Shown piece by piece: positions 257 to 64,000 of a DNA stretch of 64,000 nt. Numbering within the stretch: the first letter of the stretch is position 1; the number at the start of each line of letters is the position of its first letter. A program made the translations under genes and the position numbers. The notes below the pieces were generated by a model. That model did no database searches. It saw only the letters and a list, made by a program, of their open reading frames with translations, and was not told the origin of the DNA. Source of the DNA: Atrichornis clamosus (Eukaryota; Chordata; Aves; Passeriformes; Menuridae); NCBI GenBank assembly GCA_013400975.1, contig WBMZ01011572.1, positions 123,186-187,185 of the forward strand. Direction: 5' to 3'.

Positions 257-17051
<16,795 letters not shown>

Positions 17052-18788: not shown

Positions 18789-18866
18789 ATGCTGCGGGCT
18801 CTCCCCTCCAGCCGGATTTCAGTGTACAGCATTCCAGCTCCAGACGCTGAGCGGGCTGCAGGCCAG
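18789..18866 (+). CDS. Matriptase-like gene exon 1: start codon and cytoplasmic tail
   Basis: The ATG at 18789 has a strong Kozak context (GGCACCATG) and stays open to a GTAAGA donor, giving 26 residues that join in phase 0 to the membrane exon. A different frame open over the same bases would leave phase 2 and does not fit exon 2. This start makes the whole 17-exon model divide exactly by three. Confidence 0.75.
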
Positions 18867-27800: not shown

Positions 27801-30800
27801 TCCAGGGTCCAGTAAATGTGATAAAGACTGGTTAGAAATTGATGGAGTTAGGTGAGTAACTACATTTTTTTCTGGTATACTAATTTGCATGTTGAAGTTC
27901 TGCACATTTAGGCACCCTGTTTTTTCTGCAGTGTTAGGCATTTACTTACTCTTTTGTTCTCCTTAAGAGCAATAAGGTAGAAAACTACAGGATTTTATGC
28001 AGCTCCAGCTGAACTGTGAACTCCTGGCAGTGGTCCTAATGTGGGTGAAGAGCTTGCATAATCAGAAGTTTCATTTTCTTTACCACTTGCTCTTCAGTAA
28101 TCATTTAGTAATCATCAGTGTAATCATTACACTAACACTAAAAATAGCATTACTCTGAGTAATTTGTTTCTCGGAAGGAGCATATTGAAATAAGCAACAG
28201 CTGGTGGATTTGGCTGTATGATTTAATCCTTTACTGGATTTGTAGCACTTGGGTTTGCAAACCTAAATGGAAAATCTGAAATCAAGCATGCTTGAAGCAG
28301 TTTGTATTTATAAGGTAGGTCCTGATATTGATCATCTTGCTGTATTTGGTTTCAAAGTCTTTTAGTCCAGGAAAAGCTGGAGTTGTGGAGTGGAAAGCAT
28401 TTCTAAATAGGCTTTCTAATACTTCTATTGGGCTGTGTTAAACACCAAAATATAGCTGATCTTTACTGCATTGTCTTAAAGTTTTTGATGTCACTCCCTT
28501 TCTGTAAAAGGAGACACAGCCGGATGGTAGTTGTCAGTTTGCCTAGAAATTAATATTTCTTACTTTTGCCTTGCTAGATACTGCAAAGACCTTGCAGAAA
28601 ACAACAGAAACAGAGAATATGGATATTCTGTTACAATCAACTTCCATTCTGATGAGCTGGTCACCCACAGAGGGTTTTATATTGAGTACAAAGCCTTCAG
28701 TCACACAGACCGTAAGTTAGTAACCACACATACTTTAGTTTTTAACGAGAAACCTTTGAAACCATGCTTGACAAACCAACCACGTACAAATCAACCCGTC
28801 TTTTTTTCTTAACCTAGTTGTAATAGACAAACTTTTTAAATGTTATGTCTTTAATTTAACAAATAGATGTACAAATTTAGATAGATGTAGATATATATAT
28901 ATCTAAATATAAGATGCTTTTAGAAGTGAGTACTTATTTTCTAATTTTTATAAACACTTCTGCAAAATGGGGGTAAAGGCAAAATTTCTCAGTTTCTGTA
29001 GATCTAATTATATGGCACTTTGCTAACACTCTTTGTTTTACTGGCAGTCAAAGAGGACCCCTTGCTAACAGATGTTGCAGAAATATATCTGGGTTTCTCT
29101 AGGCCTTTCCTAACTCCGCAGTCTATATACTTCTGGATCAGTGTTAGATTTTGGGGGACTTTCAGATGGTGGAACAGGAATTTTCAGGAGTTGCATATAT
29201 TTACTTGTGATATTTCTTACAAAAGATAAAGTTTTTATTTTTTTAAATGCTTTTTATTTTCTTTACCCAATTAATGTCTAGGTAGCTAAAGTTCTCTGTG
29301 ATTTCAAGAGATCAGTTCATTTTGTGAAACCTCATTCAGATCCTCAGCTTGCTTGTCTGAATATAGTTCTGTTCATTGTTGACATAGAAACATTTATGTA
29401 TTAAGGTTTCTAGCAAAGATTTTTGTTTCATGCCTTTCATTATAAATAAGTGGCAGGTTTTGTGGTCGGTCGTTCTATAAGACTCGCATATTTTCAGGGA
29501 TTTCTTTTTCCACCAATGTGTCTTTTTCTACTAGAAAAAGTTACCAACTAAGCTGTGTCTGATGGTTACTCTGGTTACTGCCTCAAAAAATGGTTTAAAG
29601 AAGAGTCTAAGCCTAAGAACACCTTTTTTAACAGAGAAAATCCCCAGTCTTTTTTGTGTGTATCTGTGTGCTCTGCTTCTAGCACTGAGCCAGCAAGCAG
29701 ATGGCTCAAAGTTATTTAATCAATTCTTAGTCACAATCATAAGGATCTGTATTAAGACTCATCAGGAGGAGTGGAATTGCTGTACTGTGTCAGTACTAAG
29801 TTGATACAGGAGTTTGTGGAAGGCTGTCTGAGAGACCAGCATGTATGGATAGCACTGGCCTACATCAGCCTTGCCTGTAGCAGTATTAAGAGAAGAAGAA
29901 GAAGAAAAAAATTTTCTCCCACATCTTTAGTACCTGCAGTCATCCACCTCAGATTAGTTTCTTCCCATTTTTGGGTGCCTCCCAAAGCACAGTCATTAAA
30001 AATCACAGGCACTGCTCTGAGCCGACCTGGAAAGCAAATGCCAGTCATCAACTGAAAAACTTCATGGAGTGGTGAGGAGAAAATGGAGACACTCCCACTC
30101 TGAGCTCATGCTGGCTATGTAGTGTGTGCTTTCCTCCCACTGACATCACATGCAAGGCAGTGAAGAGGACTAAATTCCAACAGATGGGAACTGATTAAAC
30201 AACTGTGGGACAAATGGGTTTGGTCCTTCAATCTGTTGTAGGTCTTAATTTGTCTATGATGCTAGGTGGAAAAAGTTTCATTTGACTTGGGTGGAAAGAG
30301 GAATGGTTTTGACTACTTATTCTTTCACAGATTTTTTTTTTTCCTCTCACATCTGAAAGAGTGGAAGAGAACAAGCATGTTTGATGTATTGCAAAGAAAC
30401 ACCTTACCAACTATACTAGTTGTTAGTTTACGTGAATATGAAAGGAATTCTTGGTGAAAGGCTGTTTCATAATGAGATTACCAGATTTGGGAACGGTTTG
30501 ATAAAGCACTTATTCGCATCAGACATTGAGTGCAGCAACACAGAGATTCATTTCTACAACATTTTAATATCAGAAAATATGTATTTGTAATACCAAAGAG
30601 AATGCCTAGTTTTGATTTTATTTTCCTTCTCATTAGATGCTCCTGTGTAAAACAGAGTCCCTTAATAAATTAAAGGAGTTTTTGCTCTCAGTCATTATGT
30701 ATCTGTGCTGAAAGTCTTTCAACACTGAGTGAGGCAATTAATGTGAATTTAAGTTAAGTCCATTTAGGTGAATATTGACTCATTTAATTCAGACTTCTTG

Positions 30801-33800
30801 ATAAAAATTTTTGATGGATTGTGCCAAGTAAGATATGATTTCTTTTTTAACATTTTATAAATGACACTAGCTTTAATTTTTAATAGCCATTTTAATATTT
30901 TTTCATGGTATAGTCCTGCATTAATGCATTTAGCCTGTATCAGCATTTCTAGTGTCATTGATTGCTTATTTTCTAGCTTGTCCTTAGATATGCAGATAGA
31001 ATGTGCATTCTTTCAAGAAATCAGTCTGAAGACCAGGAAGGCTGCTCAGATGGTAGTGATGAATTAGATTGAGGTAGAGCAATTATTTCTTGCATGTTGT
31101 TTTCTGTAAAGAGTTTTTTCCACAAGGTTTAGAGATGGGCTGAAATTATCTTAAAATATTGGTGGCAATCTATAAAATCACATGAAGGATGTGGGTGAAG
31201 ATGTAAAAGTCTGGAGAAGAGGCTGTGTAATGCAGCTCTTTAAAGAGTGGGAGAACAGAAAAATCAAGAGGGAATTTTACACCAATCTTTATAAGTTAAT
31301 CTTCCAAAGGGGAAAAAAACCCCCCACAACAAGTAGCCAAAGTAAGCTATTTGTAAGTAGTGAAAAGAATATTAAAAACCAGTATGGAGTTTTAAAATTT
31401 TGTTTTAGTTCCCCGCTATGAGAGGATAAAGAGAGAAGTTGTACTTTGGCACTGTCTGGTGTGACAAGCTTATCAGTAAGGAAAGAAAATGTGAGGAGAA
31501 AAAAATACAGGAAACTGTTTCCACAGAATGATTAGCCAAGACTCATTACCAAAGGGGAAGGTTATTTTTAATGTAATTCTGCTAGTATTGTTGTGGAACG
31601 TCACTTAATTTTTGTTCATGATCTAAATGATGGATTAGAGTAGATGTTTATGAAATAGGAAAAGTGTTACACAATAGAAAGATGGATGCATTTAAGAGGG
31701 ATGTATTTACAAGTTCTCCTGAGAAGGTGGAGAACACAGATGGAGAAAAAGACAAGAACATGAGTCAGCAGTGCCCTGGCAGTCAGGAGGCCCAACCATG
31801 TGCTGGGGGGCAGCAGGCCCAGCATCGCCAGCCGGGCAAGGGGGGGAATTGTCCCGCTCTGCTCTGCACTGGGGCGGCCTCAGCTCGAGCCCTGGGGGCA
31901 GTCTTGGGTGCCACAATATAAGAAGGATACAAAGCTAATAGAGAGTGTCCAATGGAGGGCCATGAGGATGGTGAAGGGCCCGAAGGGAAAGGCATACAAG
32001 GAGCAGCCGAGGACACTTGCTCTGTTCAGCCTTGAGGAGACTGAGGGGAGGCTTCAACACAGTCTACAACTTCCTTGTGAGAGGAAGAAGAGAGGCAGGC
32101 ACTGATCTCTTTGTGGTGACCAGTGACAGGACCCGAGGGAATGGCCTGAAGTGTCAGGGGAGGTTTAGGTTGGATATTAGAAAAAGATTCTTTACCCAGG
32201 GGGTGGTTGGGAACTTGAACAGGCTCCCCAGAGAAGTGGTCACAACACCAGCCTGGCAGAGCTTCAAGAGGCATTTGGACAATGCGTTCAGGCACATGGT
32301 GTGACTCTTGGGGGTGGTGTTGTGCAAGGCCAGGAGTTGGACTTGATGATCCTTGTGAGCCCCTTCCAATTCAGAATATTCTATGAAGATCTGAACTTAG
32401 GTAGTTAAATACATGTGTGGATTGCCTAAGTTTCTTTTTTTTGCTAAAAAATGGCTGAGGAGATGATAGTCACTCAAAAGCAGACTTAGGAGTCAAAGTC
32501 ACAAAACACTGAGTTTTGTTTCTATTTGGTGTTTTTCTGCTTGGTTGCCTTTGTTTTTTCAGGTTTTTTTTAGTGTCACACTAGGATGTAACACAGGAGT
32601 TTGAAAATATCTTTTTTAACACCAGTGGGAAGGCTTCAGCTAGAGTACTGTATCTAAATTAGGCACTGCATGTCAAAGAAGATAGGGAGCATTCAAAAGA
32701 TGCCAGAAATACTGACCGGAAGGTAATCCAGGGTCAGAGAGCACAGCACAAGTCTGTGTTATCAAGGTTATCAAAACCAAGGTAGATAAATGCCTGACAG
32801 AGATGGCACAGCAACACTCAGGTGACCTCTGGTAGGGGGTGTAGCACATGGCTGCTAGCCTGCTGTTTGTGTTATAAAGAGTTTATAGACCTTTCTTCTT
32901 CAGGTTGCAATCCAGAACAGTTGAAATGTGGTGATGGGAAGTGTAAGCCTCAGTATAAGTCTTGTAAAGATGATGACAGCTGTGGGGAGGACAGTGATGA
33001 AAACAACTGCTGTAAGTCTATATTTTTAGCTACTTTCCAAAAGATGGTGAAAGGCAGAAGCAGGAATATGCATATTTTAAAGGTTAAATGTGTTGTTTCT
33101 AGATAGGAGGAGGTTTTTTTTATGGCACAAATTAAAAGATACAAAAGGATCAACACAAAACATGCAGAGTATAACTGGTTCTTGGGAGAGTTAAGACACT
33201 AATGAAGCAAAATCTTAGATAAGTGATTTTAGTAAGATAAGCAAACCACATCTTGTTGGTGATCCTATTGGAAGAGCACTTTTTCCCTAAATGCTGCCAG
33301 AACAGTACACATAATTTAAGGGACAGATACTTAGTAGGCTGGGAACTTTTGCCACATTTGTGGTCTTTTTCCTGTAGATCCACAATGGTTACAGACATTG
33401 CTGGTACTACCCTAGCAACCTGCTGCATTTTGCCATTATAATTCTTGTCTTGCTTTCAATCTTAGGTCCTTGAGGTAGCCAGCAGTATGTCTTTGTTGAA
33501 AAAAACCTCACTGCCACTATTTAGAGGTCAGAGTAAATGAGTGGTAATAAGAATGATAGTAACGGAAGCCAGTTGCTGAGATCTGTCAGGATTCTCACAC
33601 AGTAAACTGTGATAATCCTTAGCCAGAAATTTATTGGAGGGAGGTATAAAGCTCTTCCAGAATTTTCTCAATTTCACTTGAAAATGAAAAGGTGCTGTGA
33701 AGATTTATAATTTGTAGTCCCAGTAGTGCCAGTGAAGGCAAAAGAACAGATCTGACAAGCCTCACTTACTCAGTTTAGAGCCAAGTAAAATGGGAGTGGG

Positions 33801-36800
33801 GACAGTTGAGGGTGTTTCTGTCGTTTTTCCTCATGGATAGTGGAGACTAAAATTGTTGTGATCATTAATCAGAGTGCAACCTCACCCTATCCCTACTCCA
33901 TAGCGGGGCTAGTTTGCACCAGTATAGGCTGTTACTTCAAGCAAGCTGGAATGTGTCGCTTTGAACAACTTGTTGAATGTGCAAGTTGGTTTTTATAAAA
34001 TAATCTGAAAGCATGACTCCAAACACATGACAGTGTCTTCTTTCTCTTATTTCAGCCTACAGAAGTTGCTCCCCTTATGCATACAAATGCCTCAATGGAA
34101 AATGCTTGCTGAAACCAAATCCTGAGTGTGATGGGAAAAGAGACTGTACAGATGGATCTGATGAAATGAACTGTGGTGTGGTAACATTTATTTAAAAATT
34201 TGTTAATGAATTGGAAAACTAAGTCAGGAATTTGTATTGTTGTCAAGCATTATTGGATTAAGAATTGTTTAAATCAAATAAGAATTTAAAACAATAATTT
34301 CCTGGTAACATCTGTATGCAAATATTTGTCTTGGATTTTGCACCGTTTTTTTCAAATCCACTCATCTATTCTGTCTATGATGACTTATTTCAAGCAATGC
34401 ATGCTTTCAGGATAAGCTGGTAGGTGTTGGTGCTTGTTTGAGCTGAATGAAATGCAGTCGAGGAACTGTGTTTGTAAGGAAGGAAAAGATATGAGGATGT
34501 ATTCAAATGAACGTCTGAGTTGTTCTTAAAAGTCTTTTAGAGTTATTAAACTCTTCAAAAAGCTGCATGGGAGGATAAACAATGATTGATTTATATCTGA
34601 CCTACCCATTGAGAGAAGTGGACACCTACTCATCTTTTTATCAATTGCACAGTAAGAAAAGGCCTCCCCCCTGCCCCAGTTTTGAGGTCTAAAGGTACAA
34701 GTTTGTGTTAAACATGGCAAAGTGAAGTGAACTTGTGGGCTTTGTTACTAAGTTATTCAATTATTTCTATTAGCTTGTGGAAGACACCAGCTAAAGAAAA
34801 GCAGAATTGTTGGAGGTGAAGATGCAAGATCTGGAAAGTGGCCTTGGCAAGCAAGTTTACAGATGGGAGCACATGGCCACGTGTGTGGTGCGTCTGTTAT
34901 TTCCAACAGGTGGCTCATCTCTGCTGCCCATTGCTTCCTGGATTCCGATTCTGTGAGGTATGAGGAAGTTATACTGTTAGAGAGGATTTGCAGTTTAATA
35001 AGATTACATAGTTGCTTCCAGTAGTCTGCAGGAGCTATTCCTTGTCTAGAGAAAGTGATCCAGGTTATGACTTTGTGACCTGATCTCACTGTATAAACAC
35101 TCGATATTGTCTGCTGGCTTCAAAAGTCCTAAGCTTTTGAAGTTATTCTTTTGCTTCCATTGCCAATGAATCCTTTGTGCTAAAACACTGTTTTGTGAAA
35201 TTTAGGGTAAACACTTTTTTTTTTTCCAAAAGGCAATGGTTTTCTGAGTAGAAGCTATCACCTTTTCTCCTAAGTCCTATTTATTGATAAATTGAGTGTA
35301 AAACTCACTAATGTTCAGTTTGGGTAGTGTAAATTGAAAATACATGCCTCCTACATGTGGCAGGGAGGAGACAGAGCCTAATAATACATTTTTATGCTTT
35401 CCAAAGCATGGTGCATTGCAAGGAATTGGTCTTATAGCCCCAGGAAGTTAATGATTTTTCAAGACAGCAAGTAAAAACATTACTTAGGGTTTTAGGAGAA
35501 AGAGTTTACAGCACATATCTCTTCCAAAGTGGTATTCTACTCCATGCACTTTAGTTTTGATGAATCTCATCAAATACTGAAAAGTAGTTAAAAGGGAGTG
35601 AACTAACACTGCTTTGCTTTCCAGTGGGATGTTCTAAAAACATTTTTTTTACAGATACTCCGTTCCTATGGGATGGAGGGCGTATATGGGCTTACATAAT
35701 ATTAATGAAAAGAGCAATCGTGTAGCTATGAGATCAATCAAAAGGATTATTGTCCACCCACAGTATGACCAATCTATCTCAGACTATGACATTGCCCTGT
35801 TGGAAATGGAGACGCCTGTACTCTTCAGTGAGCTGGTACAGCCCATTTGTTTACCCAGCACCTCTAGAGTATTTCTTTATGGAACTGTCTGCTATGTAAC
35901 TGGCTGGGGAGCCGTAAAAGAAAATAGTATGTTCATTTCCTGGATATAATTCTTGCAATTTTGCTTTAGTTTTAAATTCTAACAATGAAATATTAATATT
36001 TGCAAGCAAAAAAAAATATCCCTGTGGTTTACTTAGTGGGTCTGTAAAAAGCTAGAAAAGATCTCCTTAGCCACAGTCTGTGAACTCTGAATGTTTGCTT
36101 GGGTGGCAGGTGATAAGTGACAAAAAGCTACTTGGGTGCCACAGATCACTGAAACGCAAATGGTCACAGATTTACACGAATGTGCCCGTTTCCATGCTCA
36201 TGGCTCATTTTGTCTGGTGTGTACAGATAACCTTGCACGTACAGAAAACAGTGACTTGTAACTACTGCAGAGAAAGAATTTGTCTCTAAGACTGTGATTG
36301 ACAAAATAGAGTCATAAGGAGCAATAATTACAAAGATATTGTGGGGGATCGTTTGTTTTTTCTGTCTTAACTAAAGGCAGTTTAAAATAAACCTCTTGAA
36401 GAGTTCTGCCTCTGTATAGCTTGGAGTAGCCTGCAGCAGTGGGGATGCAGGAAAAAACACACTGAATTGGAGAGGGGCAGTGGGGAACCTGTGGGACCTT
36501 GGCCTTGTCTCAGCATTTAACAGGAGCCACCCAGGGAAACCTGGTCTTGCACAGCATTTCAGCACTTCAGAGGTCCCCACACTTGTACTGAGACCTAGTT
36601 CCTCATGTTTGGTCAGAAGCCATAGGCTGTGGTAATTCTGTCTTACTTAATATGCCTTTAAAAAAAGCATGTAAGCCTCGTTAATGCTGTAATAACCTAA
36701 TGAAGTGCAAATGGTTTTACAGTTGATACCTTCTTCGTACAATGCCTTTCCATCAAAATGATGTGGGTAACATTCAAACTCAATATAAAGACATGTTAAA

Positions 36801-39800
36801 GAAGCATATTTTTCCATGTTAACTGTTTCATTTCCAGCCCCACTCAGAGCTGAATAAGCAATGAACCAAAACCCAGCACTTACTCTGATTATCCAGATAC
36901 TGAAAAGGTTGTGTTCACTATTAGACAAAAACATAATTCAGGATGTTTAGCTCACAATGACTCCTTGTGTCAATACTATAGTACAGAATTAAGCTCTTAG
37001 CATCATTTGTGAGTTACAGACTGTTCTTTGGGTTTGGGGTTTTTTAAAAGTATTTGTTTTTTCCTGATCAGCTTTATTCCTCAGTTTCTCCCCTAGAAGT
37101 GACGGGATGTAAAACAATGTAGAAATTACATTTTGTAGGACTTGAGCATTTTTTGGAGCACAACCATAGTGTAAATAATAGCAAAAAGCTTTTGCATAAA
37201 TTGAAATGGTATTCAAAGGTAGTCATCCTGTGTGGAATCCTATCTTATAATTTGCATGGCACTTTTACTATTTTCTGGCAGAATAATGTCATAAAAATAA
37301 AAACTAGGGAAATGGAAAGGGGGTGCATTGGACCTCTATGTCTATAGGGTAGTGCAGACAACAGCTTTCAAAAGCTGAGTGCAGGCACCATCTGAATAGA
37401 AGAGATTACCCTGCTGTCATTAGCTGGGTAGATTTTGAGCGTGAAGCAATTCTTTTGTTTTGATAAGTGGTATCTTTTAGAAATTTGTACGACCTTAACC
37501 ACTGCAATTCCATCTGTATTTTTTTCTAGGTCATCTTGCCAAAACACTTCAGGAAGCTCGAGTGAGAATGATCAACCAAAGTGTTTGCAACAAGCTGTAT
37601 GATGATCTTATTACACCACGCATGCTGTGTGCTGGGAATCTTAATGGTGGTGTTGATGCATGCCAGGTAATCTGGAACTTGTAGGAAAACTCCATAGGAA
37701 TATTTGCATTCATTGGAAAAATGTTCAGAGTTGTAGGTTTATGTAGGTTTTTTTTTTTTTAAGTAATACAGTGAGATATCATGTGTGTGAGTATATCATA
37801 AATTTAACGTGATAACTAAAGGCTCACCAAAATAAGGAAGGAAATTTAGCACTGATAATTTCTGACTCTCTTAAAAAATGTTGTTTTCCAAAGAAAAGGG
37901 ATGTTGAGAAGAGTTCTTTTTCATCTTCAACAGTTATATTTCATCTAAGAGAAAAAAAAATAGAAGGTAAAAGGATAAAGTTAGGGCCATCTGTGAGTTC
38001 TGCTGTTTGTATTAATTTCTTTTAATCTTTTTTAATATCTGGGTGTAGAATTGCTAAAATACTGTAACAATATGATGAGTAATATTATTACAGTTGCGAG
38101 AAAATACAAAAGGAAAAGCTGAGCTGGGTTTGGGAACTGCAAATACAATGCTGCGTTTTAACTTCAAACGTGCATTCATTTGTATAATTACAAGTTTTGA
38201 CTATGTCACAGTATCATAAGTTATATAACCTTGTTTGTTTACACACACCATCAGAAACTGCTTTCTGGTTGTACTTCACTTGTCCTGACTCTGCCTTCTT
38301 TCTCCTTCTCAATTATTAGACTAGTTGTGTGCTTAGTTTTTAAAATTCTGATGATTAATATCAGCTTTCCAAATTACAAACAGGTTTTTTATAGCAGTTA
38401 CTCTCTGAACGGGAGAGAATTACTGATTATTGGACTGTGGAAAGTTGATAAAATTTTTGAGTAATATATAAATTTTACTATTTAAATGCAATAGGATAAC
38501 TTTGGGAGATTGTAACTCATAATGGGCAAAATTTCTTTATGCACGATAGACTGTTTGCAGAATTTTCTTGCAGTCTCCAAGTTTGCATTAAATTATTATT
38601 TTCATTACTTTTATGTACAGTTTGTCTATAAACTTAGACCTTGGAATTGTTTTGTTAAGACATGTTGGTTTAGAGGCATGATGTTCCTCCAAAAAATGTG
38701 TTGCTTAAGAAATGCCCTTGACTTTTCAGATGGTGATTTTTAACCAACTCAGCTCTATAACATACTGACCAGTTTCCAACCTGATATGCTGTGTTTGAGT
38801 TCTAGCATGTTGGCCCTCTGTGTCTTTAATTTCTTAGTCTGGGTAGCATCTTTGCTATTTTTTTTTCTGTCACTAGTATATACTATATATTATATAATAT
38901 ATAGTATATATTTCCAGTACAGTGCTAGAGAGAAATGATGTTGGGAGTTTAGGAAACCTCACAGAACCCTAAACCCTCTTTACTATGCTTTCAGAGTTGT
39001 GAGCATCCTGTTTGGTTTCATTTCTTCCTGGACTTGTAAACTGTGCATATGTCACACCAGTTATGTGAAGCTTCCACACACCTTTCATCTGTAGAAGACA
39101 TGCAGTGAGAAATAGAAAAATTCTTTTTTCACACCGGTTTTTTTTCACTCTAGGATGTTCTTTGACCTCGGTTCCTCTGCTTAGGATCCCTCCTCTCCCC
39201 ACTGGCATACAGCCCCTCTGGTCTTTTAGAACTGGATGAGTAATTGGTGGGGCTGTGTAGCCTCCTTTCTCAAGCCACTTAGGGATGAGCCTCTTGGGAG
39301 TATCAGAATTTCTAGTGTGACAACAGTCTGAGAGAGAGGAAGAACTCTGGCTTCTTCTCTTGTCTCTAAATAATTTTGTACCACCATAATAGATAATGTT
39401 GTTTGGTTGGGCAATGAAGGCTTTCTGTTGTTACCCCTTTCTCAGTATATGGCTCTCTTATGACCTCCTACATGTTTTGGCTCCAACTGAGGGCAGCAAA
39501 CAAACCCCAGGGTCCCTGGGGAGGTGGCTGAATACCCCGTGTGCATTAGGAACAGCGGCAGAGAGGAGCTGCAGTGTAGCTGCCAAGAGTTCTGTGAGCA
39601 GAGCAGTTCACAGAAGACACACAAGGTTAAAACAATGGAGGATACCGAAGTATTGATGAGCCCAAATGCATTTTGATCCTGTGAACTGAATTGAATGGAA
39701 ATTTTTATTTTTCTACATTGCTGTACAGAGGTGCACATTCCATTTGAGAAGCCAGTTCTTATTTGTGCTTTCCTCAGTCTTTGTTCTTTCTTCTCCCTCT

Positions 39801-40493
39801 ACAAATGTAGGCACAATCTTGATTACGAAATTGCTGGTAATACCTAATTGTTCCTGGCTTGTTTTTTTGGATTTGGGTTTGTTTTGGTTTGCTGGCTTTT
39901 TTGATTGGGAGTATGTGGGGGAACCTTTCTGTTCCTATTTAACACACAGTATTAAGGGATTTGCCTTCAACCTGTGAACAATTTTTGGTCAAATGGTAGT
40001 AGAATTACTTGTTTCTATCCCTGTTGTCTTCTCTCCCCATTTGGGCTGTGGTGAGTTATTTTATGAATCCTGTAATGGGACATTATCAAGGAGTAATTTT
40101 ATAAACTGCTTCTTGCCATCGGCTTTACATTGATTAGTGTCCTACTTTCATAAGTTAAAAAAATTAAATAAATTTGACTATCTAGCTGGGTACATTCTAT
40201 CCAGAAAAAGGATTCCAATATTAAGTTTTAATTTGAGAAAGAGAGGGACAGGTTATTTACTGTTCTTGAATAACTTAACTTTTGTTACAGTGCTCTGTGT
40301 GTGTGCACTAATGGCTGGACTTCCTTCATTTTAGGGAGATTCTGGAGGTCCCCTGGCCTGCACAGGAAAGGGAAATAGATGGTACCTTGCTGGCATTGTG
40401 AGCTGGGGTGAAGGATGTGCTCGGCGCAGTCGTCCTGGTGTGTACACCAAGGTGACAGCACTTTATGAGTGGATCCGTCGGAATACAAACTGA
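18789..40493 (+). CDS. Matriptase-like (ST14/TMPRSS7 family) transmembrane serine protease, complete, 17 coding exons
   Basis: Exons 18789-18866, 19191-19359, 19984-20108, 21014-21081, 22049-22227, 22324-22362, 23127-23346, 25905-26044, 27482-27579, 27739-27851, 28578-28711, 32904-33011, 34056-34175, 34774-34957, 35655-35926, 37530-37666 and 40335-40493 join in one frame: 2343 bases, 780 residues. Rough layout: cytoplasmic tail 1-58, membrane helix 59-79, SEA 88-205, CUB1 222-338, CUB2 342-452, LDLa 456-490 and 494-530, protease 542-780. Activation is at SR541|IVGG; the triad is H583, D637, S731; the S1 residue is D725. The segment [15 protein letters not shown] resembles matriptase (ST14) more than TMPRSS7. 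By family knowledge it is a surface zymogen cleaving after Arg/Lys. It is a tandem paralogue of the upstream gene. It could be an ST14-like gene kept in birds; I assign no symbol. Confidence 0.88.
19191..19359 (+). CDS. Matriptase-like gene exon 2: Cys-rich juxtamembrane tail and membrane anchor
   Basis: Acceptor TTTCTCTAG, donor GTAAGT; phase 0 in, 1 out. It encodes a cysteine-rich stretch (CYC ... CQKC ... LCFWRRW) and then about 20 hydrophobic residues ([18 protein letters not shown]). Positive charge before the helix fits type II topology, with the tail in the cytosol. Confidence 0.88.
19984..20108 (+). CDS. Matriptase-like gene exon 3: start of SEA domain
   Basis: Acceptor TTTCCTCAG, donor GTAAGT; phase 1 in, 0 out. 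It encodes [19 protein letters not shown] and [15 protein letters not shown], the first strand and helix of a SEA domain, with an NLT sequon. Confidence 0.87.
21014..21081 (+). CDS. Matriptase-like gene exon 4: SEA domain
   Basis: Acceptor TTGTCAG, donor GTAGGT; phase 0 in, 2 out. The peptide is [20 protein letters not shown] followed by AF. It aligns closely with the equivalent C3orf52-like exon at 48735-48805 (LTEVYSSSPALGRYFRSAQV). Confidence 0.87.
22049..22227 (+). CDS. Matriptase-like gene exon 5: end of SEA domain
   Basis: Acceptor CTTTCACAG, donor GTAACA; phase 2 in, 1 out. It begins [18 protein letters not shown] where matriptase has the GSVIA-type self-cleavage turn before AYYW; here that turn is changed (see findings). 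Confidence 0.88.
22324..22362 (+). CDS. Matriptase-like gene exon 6: 39-base linker micro-exon
   Basis: Acceptor AAATTTCAG, donor GTAATT; phase 1-1. It encodes only [12 protein letters not shown] between SEA and CUB1. A second TTTCAG ends at 22329, so an alternative acceptor could drop two residues without changing frame. Confidence 0.7.
23127..23346 (+). CDS. Matriptase-like gene exon 7: first part of CUB1
   Basis: Phase 1 in, 2 out; donor GTATGA. It encodes [32 protein letters not shown] and the PGSCAS Cys, matching the first CUB1 exon of the upstream gene (257-485) in phase and length (220 against 229). The acceptor is a TAGCAG tandem, so the start is 23127 or 23130. Confidence 0.82.
23481..23634 (-). 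repeat. CR1 LINE 3' fragment, minus strand
   Basis: Minus-strand CR1: on the plus strand it reads CGAGTCCAACTCCCTGCTC, GAGCATTGTCCAGATGCTCG, TTGAACTCTGACAGGCTTCC and CCACTTCCCTGGGGAACC. It lies in intron 7 of the matriptase-like gene. Confidence 0.8.
25184..25235 (-). repeat. Short CR1 tail, minus strand
   Basis: ATCACAGAATATTCTGAGTT and GTGACCCACAAGGATCATTG match the reverse complement of the CR1 3' terminus. Only about 50 bases remain. Confidence 0.7.
25905..26044 (+). CDS. Matriptase-like gene exon 8: end of CUB1
   Basis: Acceptor TCTTCCAG, donor GTAAGT; phase 2 in, 1 out. It encodes [20 protein letters not shown] and [19 protein letters not shown], the last CUB1 strands. It pairs with 1800-1930 of the upstream gene. 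Confidence 0.87.
27482..27579 (+). CDS. Matriptase-like gene exon 9: start of CUB2
   Basis: Acceptor CTCTCCCAG, donor GTAAGT; phase 1 in, 0 out. It encodes [20 protein letters not shown] then CSWVIK, a clear CUB opening with an NGT sequon. Confidence 0.9.
27739..27851 (+). CDS. Matriptase-like gene exon 10: middle of CUB2
   Basis: Acceptor GATTTTTAG, donor GTGAGT; phase 0 in, 2 out. It encodes [20 protein letters not shown] and [12 protein letters not shown], the CUB strand that holds Cys3 and the D-x-L-E-I motif. The preceding intron is only 159 bases. Confidence 0.9.
28578..28711 (+). CDS. Matriptase-like gene exon 11: end of CUB2
   Basis: Acceptor CCTTGCTAG, donor GTAAGT; phase 2 in, 1 out. 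It encodes [20 protein letters not shown] and [19 protein letters not shown], the last CUB2 strands. Confidence 0.9.
30977..31073 (+). pseudogene. Decayed LDLa exon (lost first LDLa module of the matriptase-like gene)
   Basis: In intron 11, exactly where the first LDLa exon of the upstream gene sits, an intact acceptor (TTATTTTCTAG) and a donor-like GTAGAG flank 97 bases. The last part reads CSDGSDELD and then TGA where the sixth Cys is expected. From CI onward, cysteine positions keep LDLa spacing except that the fourth Cys is Ser. The counterpart at 9841-9948 is 108 bases; the 11-base deficit falls between Cys I and Cys III and breaks the frame, with in-frame TAG codons in the entry frame. 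It cannot be used as a coding exon. Skipping it is phase-neutral (1-1). Confidence 0.75.
31755..32388 (+). repeat. CR1 LINE 3' end, longer copy
   Basis: A fairly well-kept CR1 3' region: TTGGGTGCCACAATATAAGA, GTGACCAGTGACAGGACCCG, AGGTTTAGGTTGGATATTAG, CAGGCTCCCCAGAGAAGTGG, GGAGTTGGACTTGATGATCC, ending at ATTCTATGAAG. It sits in intron 11 of the matriptase-like gene, 0.7 kb after the decayed LDLa exon. The open frames here belong to the repeat. Confidence 0.88.
32904..33011 (+). CDS. Matriptase-like gene exon 12: LDLa module
   Basis: Acceptor TTCTTCAG, donor GTAAGT; phase 1-1, 108 bases. Six cysteines: [13 protein letters not shown], then KSCKDDDSC and GEDSDENNC. It corresponds in position to the atypical module at 10544-10654, but here all six cysteines are present. 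Confidence 0.9.
34056..34175 (+). CDS. Matriptase-like gene exon 13: LDLa module
   Basis: Acceptor TTATTTCAG; phase 1-1. It encodes [20 protein letters not shown], then CDGKRDC and TDGSDEMNC. The donor consistent with the next exon is a weak GTGTGG at 34176; a better-looking GTAACA five bases on would break the frame. Confidence 0.88.
34774..34957 (+). CDS. Matriptase-like gene exon 14: activation site and catalytic His
   Basis: Acceptor TTCTATTAG, donor GTATGA; phase 1 in, 2 out. It encodes [30 protein letters not shown] and LISAAHCF with the catalytic His. Confidence 0.93.
35655..35926 (+). CDS. Matriptase-like gene exon 15: catalytic Asp
   Basis: Acceptor TTTTTACAG, donor GTATGT; phase 2 in, 1 out. 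It encodes [26 protein letters not shown] with the catalytic Asp, QPICLP and YVTGWG. Confidence 0.93.
37530..37666 (+). CDS. Matriptase-like gene exon 16: S1-pocket segment
   Basis: Acceptor TTTTTCTAG, donor GTAATC; phase 1 in, 0 out; same length (137) as its TMPRSS7 counterpart. It encodes [25 protein letters not shown] and ends GGVDACQ with the S1 Asp. There is one NQS sequon. Confidence 0.93.
37667..40334 (+). other. Last intron of the matriptase-like gene
   Basis: AT-rich intron of 2.67 kb with no recognised exon. It holds a perfect 34-base AT palindrome at 38877-38910. Confidence 0.5.
40335..40493 (+). CDS. Matriptase-like gene exon 17: catalytic Ser and stop
   Basis: Acceptor TTCATTTTAG. 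It encodes GDSGGPLAC with the catalytic Ser, [20 protein letters not shown] and ends WIRRNTN before TGA at 40491-40493. Confidence 0.93.
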
Positions 40494-44103: not shown

Positions 44104-44271
44104 ATGAGTTGCCTCCGTGCTTACTTCAGAGACAGAGGTCCTCGCAGAGAGAGAGAAGCAGTGAAACAGCAAAGCTCTGCTCAGGAGCAGGAGATTATTG
44201 AATTACAAGAAGATAATGTGGAGGAAAGTGAGGCTGATCATGACAAGCCTCTAAACACTCAAACAAGAAAG
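44104..44271 (+). CDS. C3orf52: C3orf52-like exon 1: start and acidic cytosolic tail
   Basis: ATG at 44104 has a purine at -3. It encodes MSCLRAYFRDRGPRREREAV then a Glu/Gln-rich stretch, and ends in phase 0 at a GTAGGA donor. The next exon opens in phase 0 with the membrane segment. The tail is poorly conserved in the family, so the start is likely but not certain. Confidence 0.68.
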
Positions 44272-47200
44272 GTAGGAATTTCACTTGTTCGTTTGATCCT
44301 TCCTGTTGGAGAAAATACTACACAGCAACAGAAGTTAACACTTGCAGGATCTTGTAGGGGTGGTTTAATTTGTTGTTTGAGGGAGAGGGAAAGAGGCTGA
44401 AAACCAAACACTTTCTGTTTTTCCTTCTTATTGATGAAGTGTTCTAACATCAGAGTAGGATTTTAAGCTTTAACTTAGGAACTGAAGTAGTTGATAATCT
44501 GAGTTTTGCTTTCTCTTTTCACGTCATGGCAGTGGAGTTGGGCTTACAACTTGAAAGGAGAAAAGTTGAAATCAGTTTTGAAAACAGGCTTTTCTTCAGT
44601 ACAAATTAACCAGAAAGCAGTGCTGCCAAAACAAGAATAAGATGTCCTCCAATGGAGCATACTGGATTCTCTTTCTTTTTTTCTTTGGGTAATTTGCAGC
44701 TGTTAATCATTATGAATTTGTATTATTAGAATGCTTCAAAGCCTGAGTTAAGACCACCATGTGAGTCCTGAGGGAGGTAGCTCCCAGTACTTAGCTTAAA
44801 GCTATGGAACAGACTAGCGCTGGCAGAGGAATAATATATATTCACAGCTGACTGTCGTATAACGATTTACATTACCTACTCAAGGAATGTTTATGGCAGA
44901 GCAAAGAAGTTTCCCACTTTTCTGTAGGCATGGCTGAGCCCTGTGGGGGCTTTCTGTGTGAGTCACAGCACCCCTCCCTTCCCGCTCCTGGTGAGCAGCG
45001 ACTGCTTCCTTGTGCCAGCCCCGCTGATCATCTCTCGGGCTGGTTCATTCCCCTGAATAGGCAAACCCCCCGCTTATGCTACCACATCAGGAGTCTGTTC
45101 TCCTCTCATCTGGTAAGCTCAGTCAGCTTGCTGCAGGGTCAGACAAGGTCTAGGGAGATGCAAAGAAGAGCAGAGGGTGGAGGAGAGGCAGGGGTCAGCT
45201 TGATCTGCTAGGCTATCTCAAGAAACTTCACCCTTAAGTTAATCCTTCCCTTTCCCAGAACTGGGTTTTCGTTTGAGCTCTGTTTCTGCTGATTCTAGCA
45301 ATTGGCTTCCTCTCCTACAGGGACTGCTGGAAAATTGTCAAGCTCCGCTTTCTGCTCAATTGGCAGGTTAATCAGAACTGCCCTGCCCATCAGGGAGAGT
45401 TTTTCTCTGCTGCTGTTGCTTCCCCTCAGCCATCTTGTGATGCCTATGGGCAATGTCCAGAGGGTGTTGGACTAGCTGTGGAGCTGAATGTTTTCTTGAG
45501 ATCAAGTCAATTTGCTATGAGTGATTAAGAATTCTACTTTGTGGTAGTCTAAATACGTGGTGGTGGCTCAATCAAAACTTGGGCTGTCTGAAGTGATATT
45601 ACTATGGCTGATTTCATAATTGCATTCTAGGCAATAATTACTGGCTTATAAACATTTTTAAAATACAAATGATATGCTAGTGTTAAGTATTAAATTGAAG
45701 ATTCATTCTTCTAAAATATTTTAAAAATCAAAGAAAAAAATATGTGAATGTAATCACAGCTGAAAGCATGCTGTAAGTGAAACCATATTCACTTTTTGCC
45801 TTTCATTCTCCAACAAAGCAAAGTTCTGTGTGCAGAGGTGTCTGCACAGCGTGTTTCCCCTCTTCTGCCTCTGCCCCTGAAGGAATATCTCTGGTAAGAT
45901 CTTTTTGTGTGTGTCTCCCTGTTCCCCTGCCACCCCCACAAAAGCTTTTATCCTGCCTGTCAATTCAGTTAAATTTAGTGAAAGCCTTTCTGTGATGTTG
46001 GGGTCTTAGAAAGTTCAAAAACTAAAGGAAGGTAACTTGGATTAGTGCTTCCAGCCAGTAGCTGGCTCCTGCCATCTGCGTGTGTGCTGCCCAGACAACC
46101 TACAGCATGTGATTTTCCTCACCAGGTACAGATGTCAAAAAGGACATGGAGTTTACTACTGGCTTTATGGTGAATGGAGAGGGGGGAGGAGGAGGACTTA
46201 AAAGGGCAGCATGGTCTACTTACGGATTCAAGCCCTTCCTTCCGTCTTCTGAGTCTTCTGCCTGTGGAACAAACAGTTGAAGCTTTCTGTTTTGCTGTCA
46301 TCCAAGTTTTGGTGGTTTTTTTAAGTTTTAAGATTCACCTTGCTGGGTTAACTCATTAAAAGACTAATTTCTGCCATGGTTTAAAATCTTATTAAAAATT
46401 AAATAACAAGTAAGGTATCGTCCTTTCTCTTCCCCAGGAATGTACATGTATGCACAATTGCTTTGAGTACAATTTTCTTATGATCTCCTAGAACAGGTGA
46501 GAATTGCATTAAACTCTCTGTTAAATATATTCAATAGCCTTCAAGTTCACAATCTTCTGAAGAAAAAATAAGTCAGCTACATAAGTCTCAATTATTTTAT
46601 GGAGGGTTTAATGCAATAGTACCTATCGAATAGCCGTCCCTTGCTTTTGGTGTCGGCACCCAGAGGTGAATGATTTTGGAAATACCTCCATAGATGCCTT
46701 TTTGGTTGGGAGAGATGGTAAACATTAAAAGGAGAGCTTGTGGAATACACCAATCAAATTAATGTAGAGTAAAAAAAAAAAAGGAGCTAAGAAATCACCT
46801 TTGTAACACTTTAGCTTTATGGGTAATTCAGGAGTTGGAAATTCTGCACAAAGGGGAATGATATGTCTTTCAAGTAATAGCCTGCCTGCGAATGTCCTTT
46901 GCCTTCTGTAGGTCTACATTCCCACCTGCAGCAGTAGTTAAGGGTGGGAACCTCCGGTGTAAGGCATTCCTTACTAATGAGGCTATGTAGGTTTTTTTTC
47001 CTAAATGTGACAGTAGAGACAGGTTTCAATACTTTTTCCTGCCTTACTTCATTAATCAATATGCTCTTCTCTTTTATACCTAGGAGAGGAATCACTGGAA
47101 ATCGTGCAGTAATGTCGTTTTCTGGAAGTGTAAACTATGGATGGTTATAACTGCGATATTTCTAGTAATCTTCCTGGTCATTCTCATTAGCCTAATTCTT

Positions 47201-50200
47201 TACTCTAGTAAGTATCTCACTCTTTGTTACACTAATACAAATGTGCAATATGTACAATCTAATAGAACACAAATGTAACAGCAGCATCCTTTAGACTCCC
47301 TCAGTAACCTGCTGAAGGAATTGGGATACTGACTGCAGAGGGTGGTGTGCTCAGTAGGGGATGGGAATACTTTGATCTTTGCAAACAACTTCTGTCCTGG
47401 TCCAGTGGCAATTCCAGTTTGTAGCTAAGCGAGAAAGTATTACAAGAAGTGAGTTGGGTATGAGGATGGAAATGATGCTTGTAATATTGCAACAAGTGCC
47501 ATGGATGATTTAGATCCCGTCGAGTGGTGTCATTGCCTGTCAGGCTCCCAGAGCAGATGACTTTTGCTAATGGGAGTGGGTGGCTGACCTCCATGTGCTG
47601 TCACCTTATTTCAGGTGACTTGCACTTTCTTTCTGTCATTCCCAGTCAGTCCTTAGGCAGGAATTTTGTGAGAAAGTCACCCTGGACAAAGCCAAGAGGG
47701 TTTTTTTTCTAACACTTCAGCTAACTGAAACTTTTTCCTTCCCTTTCTGTTTCCTTTTGATTATTAGATGTTTACACAGATGAGGATGACTATTGGGATC
47801 CTGATGAACTACTAAACAGTGGAAATTTTCACAATTTTTCAGGAACATTGGAGTTAATGTGTGGTCTCCCACACTTTTTCTCTGAGGACATTACTAAGAG
47901 GGTATGTGTTGATGTTGTTCTTGGCAAAGTTAATTCTGCTTAGAACATAGTTTCAGTGTTTTGCCTTTTAAGAAGTTTCTTTTTCTCTGTGTAGCAACTT
48001 AGTCATTTGCAAGTCCACAAGTACAAAAAAAAGTGTTGTAACTTTTGAAGTTGCAATCTGGAAAGAAAGATTTGTCTGCTTTTAAACACACAAAAAATCT
48101 GATTTCCCCCCTCCCCCCAAATTTGACTAATGGTTAAGACACAGTCTTCACTTTTTTAATAGAATCACTGACTAATTTAGGATGGGCCTGTAAAAGTCAT
48201 CTGTGCACCATATGGGCTAAATATACTGCATTCTTTCATGAGTAGGCAATTACAGCCTGGGTTTATAGCTGTGATTTTCACTGAACTGAGGCACAGCTGA
48301 AATAAGCTCAGCATACACAGCAGTGCTCATTTGGACATGGTGGGATGGGGGTCTAAGTAGAGAGACTCTCCCCTCTGTGAAGTAAGAGTTGGAAGGGCTT
48401 TTTGGTACTAATTAGGTCTCAAAACCAACAACATCAATTGCACATGGCAACACGAGCACATACTTGTAGTTCACCCTGAATGCCTCCATTGTGTTAAGGT
48501 TATACGGCAATCACTCAAATGCACAATTAACTTGTCTGTCAAACTTAAAGGGACTATGTACCTTTTCCAGGACAGATATTAGCTGTTCTTTGACCTTCAG
48601 CACCTGCATTTATGCTCCTTAAAGCACCTGATAAAAATGATTTGCTGTGCTTTTTTTTTGTTTGTTTTTGTGGGGAAAAGAGAGACTGAATAGAAGACAT
48701 ATGTTTTTCTGTTTATTTTTTTTTTCTCTCTCAGCTAACAGAGGTCTACAGTTCATCTCCAGCTTTAGGACGTTACTTTAGGTCAGCTCAGGTGGTTTCT
48801 TTCAGGTAAGCAATTTCTGTCATCAGAGTTCTCTGAAAATGACAGGCTTTTGATGAGACATATATATGCCTATGTAAATACGTAAAATATTTAAAACTGT
48901 GAAAAATAAGATGTTTGGGGTAAAATTATGTGTATAGGCAGTGAAAACTGGTCAAGGGATCCTCTGGTGTAAATGGCAAATGCTGCTAATATTGTATAAT
49001 CATATAATATTATAATATAATCATGCTGCTAATATTATCATTAGATGGGAACATATTTTTGCTGTGAAGTATCATCTCTATTATCCTTGGTTCTAATTGC
49101 AGCCCTTAGTAAACTTGTTCAAGTACGCTTATTAATAGGAAAATGAATTGTTAGAGACACTTAAGATGGATGTAGCTTAAATAATCTTAAATAAATAAAA
49201 CAGGGTTCATGGGGAGGGGAGAATTATTTTGTTCCCAAAAGAGTTAAAAGCGACAGGAATATACATGTTTGCTGCCATGGAGAAAGAGCAGAGAGGCAAG
49301 GAAAGACAGAGAGCTTCCCTAAGGACTTCTGAAAAAGAACTCTTACTAAAGGAATTAGAAAGGTAGGAAAAAATCAAGGCAAGTATGTTGCAAAGTCCCA
49401 AGGCCTTTGAGCTAGCAAGGACAGAGGAACAGTCACCTTGGGCTGTGGCAAGGGACTGAGCGTACTTTGCTCCCTTGAGGGAATATTCTGCCTTGCCCTG
49501 CCAGCCTTGGGCGTGCCAGCTCTGTTTACTGGTGAACTGTAGCTCCCTAGGCTTATGGGTAATAATAATGATTTAGGCAATCAAGTACAAAGCTGTAGTT
49601 CTGCACATATACTGATTAGCTGATCTCTTCCTCTCTGCCTTTTTGTTGTCTCTCTCTCGCTGCCTCTCTCTTTCTTTCCTTTTATTTTCTCTCCAAGTAT
49701 TTTTTGAAAATGTTTTAAATTCTGTGAGTACAAAACGTAGCTGTTGAATTGTAGTAAGCGGATTTGGTAGACTACAAACAATGAAATCTCCAGAGATGGT
49801 CTTAAGTTCACTGGTTTGTGTAATCCACACCAGAGCTGAGTCAGGAGCACAGCTGGGTGGTCCCAGGTACTGCTAGCAGGAAAGCCAACCTTTCTGCAGG
49901 TTCCGAGCTAAACTGTGCCCAGGATATTGCAACACCTCTTATCAGTAGGTTCTTGTGAAGCAGGAGGGCTGGAAAGCACCCCCCATTAAGGCGCATGTCC
50001 AACTGCTCTTTGTGCATTTGAAAACATGTCTCTGGCTGGCTTCAAGTACGTACCTGATTCCACGAGCTGTTCTGAGAAGGGAGGGGGAGGAGAAAGCTGG
50101 AATCTTTGGCAGTTTTCTTTCATAATGCTTTTCTTGAGAAAATGTTTTTTGAAAAAATCCATGCCAACATTGATATGAAAAGTCAGTCTTCTCAAAAAAA

Positions 50201-51377
50201 AAGGATCCAATTGGAACTTGAAGGCATTCATATTTGACTTTGTTTTTCAGTAATGAAAGCTCCACTGTAATTTATCAGCTAGTGTTTTCTGTGCCACCAT
50301 CAATAGAGGGATTTATGGAAAACACTATGAACCCAGATTTGATAAGGAACATTTTACGTCAAAATATTTATGATGAAGATAATACTTCTAATCCTGGGAC
50401 ATCTGAATGTGACAGGTTAAAGCTTGACCCAACTTCACTCACATGTAAGTGCTGTACATTAGAGAAAATGTTTCTTTACAAAAAGCAGAAGTATTTATGG
50501 GAAAGGTGGTAATATTTCTAGAAAGATATTGAGATTTGTTGGTAAATATATTTTGCACCATGGTATTAAGAATATTTTAAAATAGTTTTCAGAAAGTCTT
50601 GATATGCTTAACTTACAACCTAGGACTCATCTCCTCAGGTAAGAAAGGGAGTAGTGTTGAGACTGGTTACTATGAACTCCAACCAAACTTTTCAGATCTA
50701 ATATTGCATTTTATCTATTAAAAAAAAAATTTCTTCTCGTGTGTGTACCATAATGGGGAAACAAATAATTAAAAATATGTCTCCTTATTGTACATTCATT
50801 TTTGAATGCTAACAAAACAAATTTTAAAGCAAGGGATGAAAAAGACTCCTGATTTTTGTCTTCCTGTATGTTTTTTTTGAAAACTTATTATGCACAGAGA
50901 TACCTTTTAAAGGAACTAAATATTCATTCTTCCAGGTTTTCTAGGTAGCGATTCCAGTGGCTACCAGTGACTAGGCAGTGATTCCAATGCATTTATAGCT
51001 GTCTTGATAGAAATGCTAGTATAAAAGTCCCATAAGCTTTGAAGTTACACTGAAAACAATGCATGAAGCTGCTTCCCCCCACCCCAAACTTACAGAGCCA
51101 CGCCTACATGCTTTCAGAATAATCCTAGGCTAACACTTCAGCATGCAGTGTATATAAGTAAGATTTGCATTTAACTTGTTTTGATTTTTCTTGCAACTCT
51201 TATCAAGGAACAAGAGATCAACAAGTCATGAGTTCCAATTTTCAGAAGCATTTTTTTCTGTATATAGTGACAGGATTCCTAGAAAAAGCAATGTAAAAGA
51301 GAAAGGAAAGGATATGTTGAAACAAGTAATTAAAGTTTCATTTTAATATTTATATTGTTCTGTTTTAACTTTCAGAG
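44104..51377 (+). CDS. C3orf52: C3orf52 (TTMP)-like single-pass SEA protein; one exon frameshifted in this sequence
   Basis: Exons 44104-44271, 47084-47207, 47769-47901, 48735-48805 and 50251-50444, plus a split stop at 51376-51377. The protein has an acidic cytosolic tail, a membrane helix, a DED-rich linker and a SEA domain of about 110 residues ending LKLDPTSLT. The anchor region (FWKCKLWMVIT) and the LDPTSL end match human C3orf52 (TTMP) as remembered, and the gene lies next to TMPRSS7 as in human. The coding sum is 692 bases, one short of a multiple of three; the missing base is in a T-run in exon 3. It may be a real loss or a sequencing error. Restoring frame would give about 230 residues, close to the human protein. 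Human TTMP is described as phorbol-ester induced; its biochemical role is unclear to me. Confidence 0.8.
47084..47207 (+). CDS. C3orf52: C3orf52-like exon 2: membrane anchor
   Basis: Acceptor TTATACCTAG, donor GTAAGT; phase 0 in, 1 out. It encodes ERNHWKSCSNVVFWKCKLW and then about 23 hydrophobic residues (MVITAIFLVIFLVILISLIL). The KCKLWM motif directly before the helix matches the human protein as I recall it. Confidence 0.85.
47769..47901 (+). CDS. C3orf52: C3orf52-like exon 3: linker and start of SEA, with frameshift
   Basis: Acceptor TTATTAG, donor GTATGT. The entry frame reads VYTDEDDYWDP ... NFSGTLELMCGLPHFF. The frame that joins exon 4 reads SEDITKR. The two frames meet at the six-T run 47876-47881, where one base is missing relative to an open frame. 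In the entry frame the next exon gives TAA almost at once. The exon is 133 bases; phase 1 to 0 would need 134. Confidence 0.78.
48735..48805 (+). CDS. C3orf52: C3orf52-like exon 4: SEA helix
   Basis: Acceptor CTCTCTCAG, donor GTAAGC; phase 0 in, 2 out. The peptide LTEVYSSSPALGRYFRSAQV continues VSF. It matches the human C3orf52 SEA segment and exon 4 of the matriptase-like gene (21014-21081). Confidence 0.88.
49620..49696. repeat. Pyrimidine-rich CT tract
   Basis: A long CT-rich stretch (TCTCTCTCGCTGCCTCTCTC with TTTC runs) in the last coding intron of the C3orf52-like gene. Simple-sequence origin is likely. Confidence 0.6.
50251..50444 (+). CDS. C3orf52: C3orf52-like exon 5: end of SEA and C-terminus
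   Basis: Acceptor TTTTTCAG, donor GTAAGT; phase 2 in, 1 out. It encodes NESSTVIYQLVFSVPPSIEG through LKLDPTSLT. The last base T joins AG of the exon at 51376 to make TAG, so the protein ends LDPTSLT. If the intron is retained, the frame instead runs 22 residues to a TAA at 50510-50512... in that case the ending is not conserved. Confidence 0.82.
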
Positions 51378-63400: not shown

Positions 63401-64000
63401 AGCTTGGGAGCTGAGAACCTGGAGCTGAGACCCTGAAGGCGCATGAGTGGATCACTGCTCCTTGCTGCCACAGGTGAAGACACATCAGTTTCACATGGAT
63501 TTTGTTGGCCTTGAATCAAGCTGCTTCTTAGAGCAAGGCTTCATGCTTTGGGGAATTTTGCCCTTTCCCTCAAGGGCAGGTAATATGGTCATGACTTAAA
63601 CATCTGGGCACAGACCTGCAGGGATGTGAGAGATGCACTCTCTTTGGAAAAAAGCGGAACATTTAATTTTGGCAAGGGAGAGCCTTGTCTGAACTCCTTA
63701 ACACCAAGTAAGCAGCCAGGGTACAGTATTTAGAGGTTGCATGACCTTTTCTTTGACCTATCAAGAAGACAATGGAAAAGAAAGGGAATTTTCCACCTGT
63801 CCTAGGTGGCTCCTGCTGAGCATCCTCCTCTATCCATATAGCTCCTTAGGAGACAACCTACTCCTAACCTCTGATGTACATAACTATAGTATACTCATAT
63901 ATCCTGTGTACAGCATTTAAATATATTGTACAATTTAGTCTATTTCTATATAGTGTATAAAAAAGCTTGTCTTCATGAGACACTGTCGTGGTTTTGCTAG
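54436..64000. other. Region beyond the GCSAM-like exon; no gene recognised
   Basis: Should hold upstream (5') exons and introns of the minus-strand GCSAM-like gene, but none could be supported. A GC-richer part lies at about 58900-59850. Open frames here lack recognisable domains and splice context. Confidence 0.4.

Follow-up and report, generated by a model that had tools for sequence, protein, structure and literature searches.

In Atrichornis clamosus, two matriptase-type genes on the same strand immediately precede the TTMP gene C3orf52, which probably originated as a protease-less duplicate of the matriptase lineage. The stretch of DNA analysed here (the window) comprises 64 kb of contig WBMZ01011572.1 (C7226; positions 123186-187185) in a genome of 1.01 Gb, and reaches the end of that contig. 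Three consecutive genes lie on its + strand, namely the 3' part of TMPRSS7, an ST14-like gene that we call ST14L, and C3orf52, with coding gaps of 1.7 kb between the first two and 3.6 kb between the last two. In the proposed course of events, one of the matriptase-type genes in this array, or an ancestor of it, would have been copied in tandem. The copy would have kept the cytosolic, transmembrane and SEA exons, ending at or just past the last SEA exon, and would have come without the CUB, LDLa and trypsin exons; the change presumably ran from protease gene to C3orf52. The fuller explanation, in which this origin is joined to a role of the uncleaved SEA domain as a dock for lipase H, we regard as likely. 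The gene and its link to disease are already known, and some UniRef and Pfam entries carry an automatic label for the SEA domain; our searches of open-licence papers found no statement of a matriptase-array origin.

Similarity of the C3orf52 SEA domain to those of matriptases

The protein is the TTMP orthologue: its best full-length matches, all from birds, are 86-88% identical. Its 105 matches carry the names TTMP/C3orf52 or SEA-domain protein, or are called uncharacterised or hypothetical; they come from birds, reptiles and one marsupial, with three nameless entries in addition. The Pfam SEA domain scored 28.0 bits in C3orf52 against a gathering score of 26.4, and was detected at E<=0.01 in 39 of 66 orthologues (birds, reptiles, mammals and one unnamed). 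The predicted fold has the beta-alpha-beta-beta-alpha-beta order of an SEA domain. No SEA chain came up in sequence searches of the PDB, whether the query was C3orf52 by itself or its profile. An N-terminal part is followed by a single hydrophobic anchor (predicted helix 57-99) and then by the SEA domain, as in type II transmembrane serine proteases, and we infer a type II membrane protein, in that orientation, with one SEA domain. No trypsin-type catalytic domain was found in C3orf52 proteins, and none was seen downstream to position 64000.

By hidden Markov model (HMM) scores, the C3orf52 SEA domain is nearer to those of the matriptases (ST14, TMPRSS6, TMPRSS7 and ST14L) than to those of TMPRSS11, TMPRSS9, MUC16 or an IMPG2-like protein. 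It was nearer to the matriptases also in an exon-anchored comparison and in a comparison of predicted folds. The best HMM scores were those of ST14, and the MUC16 sequence score was low. TMPRSS11 represents the HAT/DESC family of proteases, and a derivation of C3orf52 from a gene of this type rather than from a matriptase would have to accommodate lower values throughout: HMM scores of 4.7-7.4 bits, a fold Z of 7.2, and an exon-anchored score of 20.0 against 33.7-43.7 for the matriptases. The TMPRSS11-like exons of this genome also lie on another contig (C149). We consider such a derivation very unlikely, even though the TMPRSS11-like gene has SEA exons of phases 1->0 and 0->2 with a likely anchor exon in front, as in C3orf52.

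The exon-anchored comparison used 26 hand-cut rows: seven of C3orf52, six of 21 of ST14L, two of three of TMPRSS7, one each of ST14 and TMPRSS6, three of four of TMPRSS11, two of four of TMPRSS9 and four of MUC16 (one a fragment). Its hairpin gaps were set by hand, which may favour ST14 and TMPRSS6. From the family sets, two of the 29 C3orf52 rows chosen (P0227 and P0240) were left out, the cut motif being missing. An early family-profile comparison with C3orf52 gave 36% for ST14 (a provisional sequence), 33% for TMPRSS6, 14% for TMPRSS7, 4% for TMPRSS11, 0.7% for MUC16, 0.2% for ST14L and 0.04% for TMPRSS9; a larger C3orf52/ST14L profile pair reached a probability of 78.

We also considered whether C3orf52 was copied from a gene of the matriptase-1 (ST14) type specifically, and not from its present neighbours. 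In addition to the top HMM scores, the second SEA exon is 71 nt long in C3orf52 and ST14 alike but 68 nt in ST14L, TMPRSS7 and the MUC16-like and TMPRSS11-like genes, and a short hairpin after the phase-2 intron is common to C3orf52, ST14 and TMPRSS6. These features hint at ST14 but may be due to chance: differences of one codon or in hairpin length arise easily, TMPRSS6 and ST14L stood above ST14 in the exon-anchored comparison, and ST14 lies on another contig. This more specific parentage is doubtful, and on about 100 residues of sequence ST14, TMPRSS7, TMPRSS6 and ST14L are not separable as parent.

Intron phases in SEA genes of the same genome

An initial annotation of this DNA had proposed that C3orf52 is a tandem duplicate of the 5' half of a TMPRSS7/matriptase gene, its chief argument being intron phases. 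The protease gene that it compared with C3orf52 is the separate gene ST14L, not TMPRSS7. When exon boundaries and splice sites were recomputed, the anchor and SEA exons of both genes gave the series 0-1, 1-0, 0-2, 2-1, as had been described. It was also right that the first coding exons of both genes end in phase 0 and that a serine is split over the phase-2 intron in each. The exon coordinates and lengths stood except for C3orf52 exon 3, which starts at 47768 (134 nt), not at 47769 (133 nt). Both introns inside the SEA domain occupy the same columns in C3orf52/ST14L profile alignments, and the likeness in phase exceeds chance, as homology of SEA modules.

As a control we took in the TMPRSS7, ST14, MUC16-like, TMPRSS11-like and IMPG2-like genes of the same genome. 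The anchor and three SEA exons of TMPRSS7 (L010, just upstream of the window) are 193 nt (0->1), 131 nt (1->0), 68 nt (0->2) and 194 nt (2->1), and those of ST14 (L031) are 160 nt (0->1), 128 nt (1->0), 71 nt (0->2) and 161 nt (2->1), so that ST14, TMPRSS7 and ST14L are all like C3orf52 in the phases of anchor and SEA exons. Three MUC16-like SEA repeats (L002, L003 and L007; contig C8723) have exons of 143-149 nt (1->0), 68 nt (0->2) and 173 nt (2->1). The first SEA exon of a fourth (L005) is likewise 1->0; L004, L005 and L006 were followed to this exon only. The TMPRSS11-like gene has SEA exons of 116 nt (1->0) and 68 nt (0->2), and its third SEA exon was looked for and not found. Its likely anchor exon exits in phase 1, to which the search was limited, with entry phases 0 and 1 tied. 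The IMPG2-like gene appears different, with a second SEA exon of 54 or 72 nt that exits in phase 0, entry phase 0 being assumed. The names MUC16-like, TMPRSS11-like and IMPG2-like are our presumption, from resemblance to PDB chains or to known proteins. For some control exons, homology guided the choice over splice candidates that scored equally well or better. In TMPRSS7, the first SEA exon (131 nt) tied with a 186-nt candidate; in one MUC16-like repeat, the second exon (68 nt) tied with a 48-nt candidate; and in all three MUC16-like repeats the third exon (173 nt) tied with other candidates or scored one below them.

Because MUC16-like and TMPRSS11-like genes have the same SEA phases, the series marks SEA genes at large, mucin-type ones included; it is probably older than either the mucin-type or the protease SEA family. 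Intron phases were thus rejected as proof of a TMPRSS origin: SEA exon phases are evidence that SEA domains are homologous, but do not point to any one protease as ancestor. Phase differences in other vertebrates, which the initial annotation had named as a possible refutation, are equally unable to separate a protease from a mucin origin. The MUC16-like repeats, with their shared phases and 68-nt middle exon, would suit an alternative in which C3orf52 and the proteases each obtained an SEA exon module independently, for example from a mucin-type gene, their adjacency being coincidental. The SEA trees leave C3orf52 with MUC16 unrejected (p 0.24-0.34). MUC16 differs from C3orf52 in its low sequence score and in carrying tandem repeats rather than a single anchor-SEA unit. 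We find independent acquisition quite unlikely.

The initial annotation was a good lead that relied on the wrong evidence, and is partly supported. Its phases are real but non-diagnostic, and no parent can be named. What stands are the adjacency, the shared strand and the likeness of the SEA domain to those of matriptases in HMM, exon-anchored and fold comparisons. It is this other evidence, and not the phases, that makes a protease-less duplicate of the matriptase lineage the likeliest origin of C3orf52.

SEA trees, the gene ending and the neighbouring genes

Four SEA trees were built, from 37, 38, 40 and 25 rows. In the three that had C3orf52 and the matriptases on one side of a branch, support was 96/95 (tree 1, with a provisional human ST14 sequence), 88/79 (tree 2) and 71/98 (tree 4); a branch of matriptases without C3orf52 also received 78/34 in tree 2 and 79/42 in tree 4. 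A tree of SEA domains had been a check suggested by the initial annotation. Approximately unbiased (AU) tests rejected no alternative.

Several results weigh against a matriptase origin. None of the four tree builds is decisive. Tree 3, which took in own-genome rows and used an automatic alignment, breaks up the matriptases and does not have C3orf52 and the matriptases on one side; it places TMPRSS9 inside ST14L, and long branches scramble the families. In trees 2 and 4 C3orf52 falls in the middle, with matriptases to one side of it and the other families to the other, which leaves the decision to the position of the root. The AU tests of trees 2, 3 and 4 gave p 0.19 to 0.54 for the alternative partners. 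Among these, a TMPRSS11 origin had p 0.42 in tree 2 and p 0.54 in tree 4, where the tree held to it was 1.07 log units better, and tree 3 has a branch pairing TMPRSS11 with C3orf52 at 26/0. In the HMM comparison the direct neighbour, ST14L, is not the top family and its lowest rows overlap TMPRSS11. Several rival rows there are fragments, which depresses their scores; the fragments in this comparison are the TMPRSS6 row, one TMPRSS7, one TMPRSS11 and one MUC16 row, and the IMPG2-like row. TMPRSS7, TMPRSS11 and MUC16 tie in the exon-anchored comparison when just the second SEA exon is considered, and the early family-profile comparison matched ST14L poorly, over seven aligned columns. The SEA exon phases, as set out above, are common to the MUC16-like repeats and the TMPRSS11-like gene. 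Finally, a search with five proteins for relics of lost CUB, LDLa or protease exons beyond 41000 found none better than E 0.83, though it also missed the SEA exons of C3orf52 itself. From this search, a partial duplication cannot be told from a full duplication with later loss of the 3' part.

Among the 75 database proteins nearest to C3orf52 (P0001-P0075), 49 stop at the junction of the last SEA exon (50444); in the full set of 140 the number is 53. In mammals and lizards the protein extends a few residues past this junction, and others have read-through or isoform tails. Some bird entries continue into the intron after 50444. To judge from these protein ends, the last intron may interrupt the stop codon at the phase-1 junction, although this is not proven; a strict pattern search found no short terminal coding exon. 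An ending of C3orf52 at an old exon border fits the protein ends without being proved by them.

The reverse course, in which a short anchor-SEA gene like C3orf52 was ancestral and the protease parts were gained later, is compatible with the exon data, which alone give no direction. Against it, entries for ST14-like proteins extend from sharks and rays as far as birds, whereas the best 120 of the 251 C3orf52 matches are amniote or without a species name. One paper lists C3orf52 in gar (PMC6170504). We judge the reverse course highly improbable, and retain descent from a matriptase-type gene.

ST14L itself is named inconsistently in databases, its bird and reptile entries reading 'suppressor of tumorigenicity 14 protein homolog' or 'TMPRSS7-like'. 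Similar proteins, putative orthologues, are also listed from axolotl, a caecilian, lungfish, rays, sharks and fish. The gene looks absent from mammals, judging from the best 120 of its 248 matches, in which the sole named mammalian entries are three of TMPRSS9. Within the window, TMPRSS7 and ST14L have the same entry and exit phases in comparable resolved exons when the best-scoring splice sites are used; these comprise two CUB1 exons, the first CUB2 exon, the LDLa exons and three trypsin exons, with one CUB2 exon per gene left out. An ST14L intron contains a decayed LDLa exon relic at 30995..31075 (+) with a stop codon at the position of the last cysteine. It reads DRMCILSRNQSEDQEGCSDGSDELD*G, and the turtle counterpart reads DRTCIPLNNQCDGWKDCSDGSDELDCG. 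This LDLa repeat is missing in the three bird proteins examined and present in turtle, crocodile and lizard. Three database gene models (P0137, P0180 and P0193) fuse neighbours of the array (ST14L with C3orf52; TMPRSS7 with ST14L). The features of the window are given in Table 1.

Table 1. Genes and exons of the array in the 64 kb window
Feature	Position	Strand	Details
TMPRSS7 3' part (CUB, LDLa and trypsin exons)	257..17051	+	anchor and SEA exons upstream of the window
ST14L gene: cytosolic exon, TM (transmembrane), SEA, CUB, LDLa, trypsin domain	18789..40493	+	
ST14L first coding exon	18789-18866	+	exit phase 0
ST14L anchor exon	19191..19359	+	169 nt, phase 0->1
ST14L first SEA exon	19984..20108	+	125 nt, phase 1->0
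ST14L second SEA exon	21014..21081	+	68 nt, phase 0->2
ST14L third SEA exon	22049..22227	+	179 nt, phase 2->1
ST14L GDSGGPL exon (trypsin domain)	40335-40493	+	
C3orf52 (TTMP) coding exon 1, N-terminal (cytosolic) part	44104..44271	+	exit phase 0
C3orf52 exon 2, juxtamembrane and transmembrane anchor	47084..47207	+	124 nt, phase 0->1
C3orf52 exon 3, first SEA exon	47768..47901	+	134 nt, phase 1->0; AG at 47766-47767
C3orf52 exon 4, second SEA exon	48735..48805	+	71 nt, phase 0->2; Pfam SEA
C3orf52 exon 5, last SEA exon	50251..50444	+	194 nt, phase 2->1

A possible dock for lipase H

C3orf52 is closest to the matriptases in SEA sequence and predicted fold, and shares a tandem array with two of them, TMPRSS7 and ST14L. 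It differs from them in having no CUB, LDLa or trypsin domain and in a conserved extra pair of cysteines. The G-[ST]-hydrophobic autocleavage motif was found in none of the 66 C3orf52 orthologues, which suggests that the SEA domain should remain one piece on its anchor. ST14 of the same bird retains the motif (SEGSVIAYYW), and it is absent from all 32 ST14L rows at 22049-22080, where the pattern used was stricter than that for C3orf52. Two ectodomain cysteines are conserved in 66 of 66 C3orf52 orthologues, and the SEA domain is perhaps locked by a disulphide of its own, between C129 and C219 in the numbering of P0002.

The interaction of C3ORF52 with lipase H was reportedly first described by Malki in 2020. 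According to passages in two papers, loss of C3ORF52 leads to localized recessive hypotrichosis, and the protein is co-expressed with lipase H, binds it, and is thought necessary for the lipase H-driven synthesis of lysophosphatidic acid (PMC12715598, PMC12098026). The exact function of C3ORF52 is still described as unclear in a passage of one of them, a 2025 review (PMC12715598). A non-self-cleaving SEA domain, probably fastened by a disulphide, would serve as a docking module fixed in the membrane and not as a protease stalk, and may hold lipase H where lysophosphatidic acid is made. We put this docking mechanism, in which the SEA domain itself would be the contact for lipase H, forward tentatively, at slightly less than even likelihood. 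Mutations in human ST14 cause ichthyosis with hypotrichosis. In a related idea, TMPRSS6 is reported as a matriptase that acts mainly without proteolysis, and its mouse mutants also lose hair (PMC10551898).

A bolder view, which we think rather unlikely, sees C3orf52 as a matriptase that has abandoned proteolysis, its SEA stem having become a stand-alone membrane dock for lipase H. If proteolysis was indeed given up, matriptase stem domains may themselves serve for binding, with functions that do not depend on cutting, and the hair phenotypes of C3ORF52, LIPH and matriptase may have a common mechanism at the cell surface. An origin in the matriptase lineage would give C3ORF52, a gene of a hair disorder, a fold, a topology, a set of relatives and a testable idea of its SEA domain as a dock.

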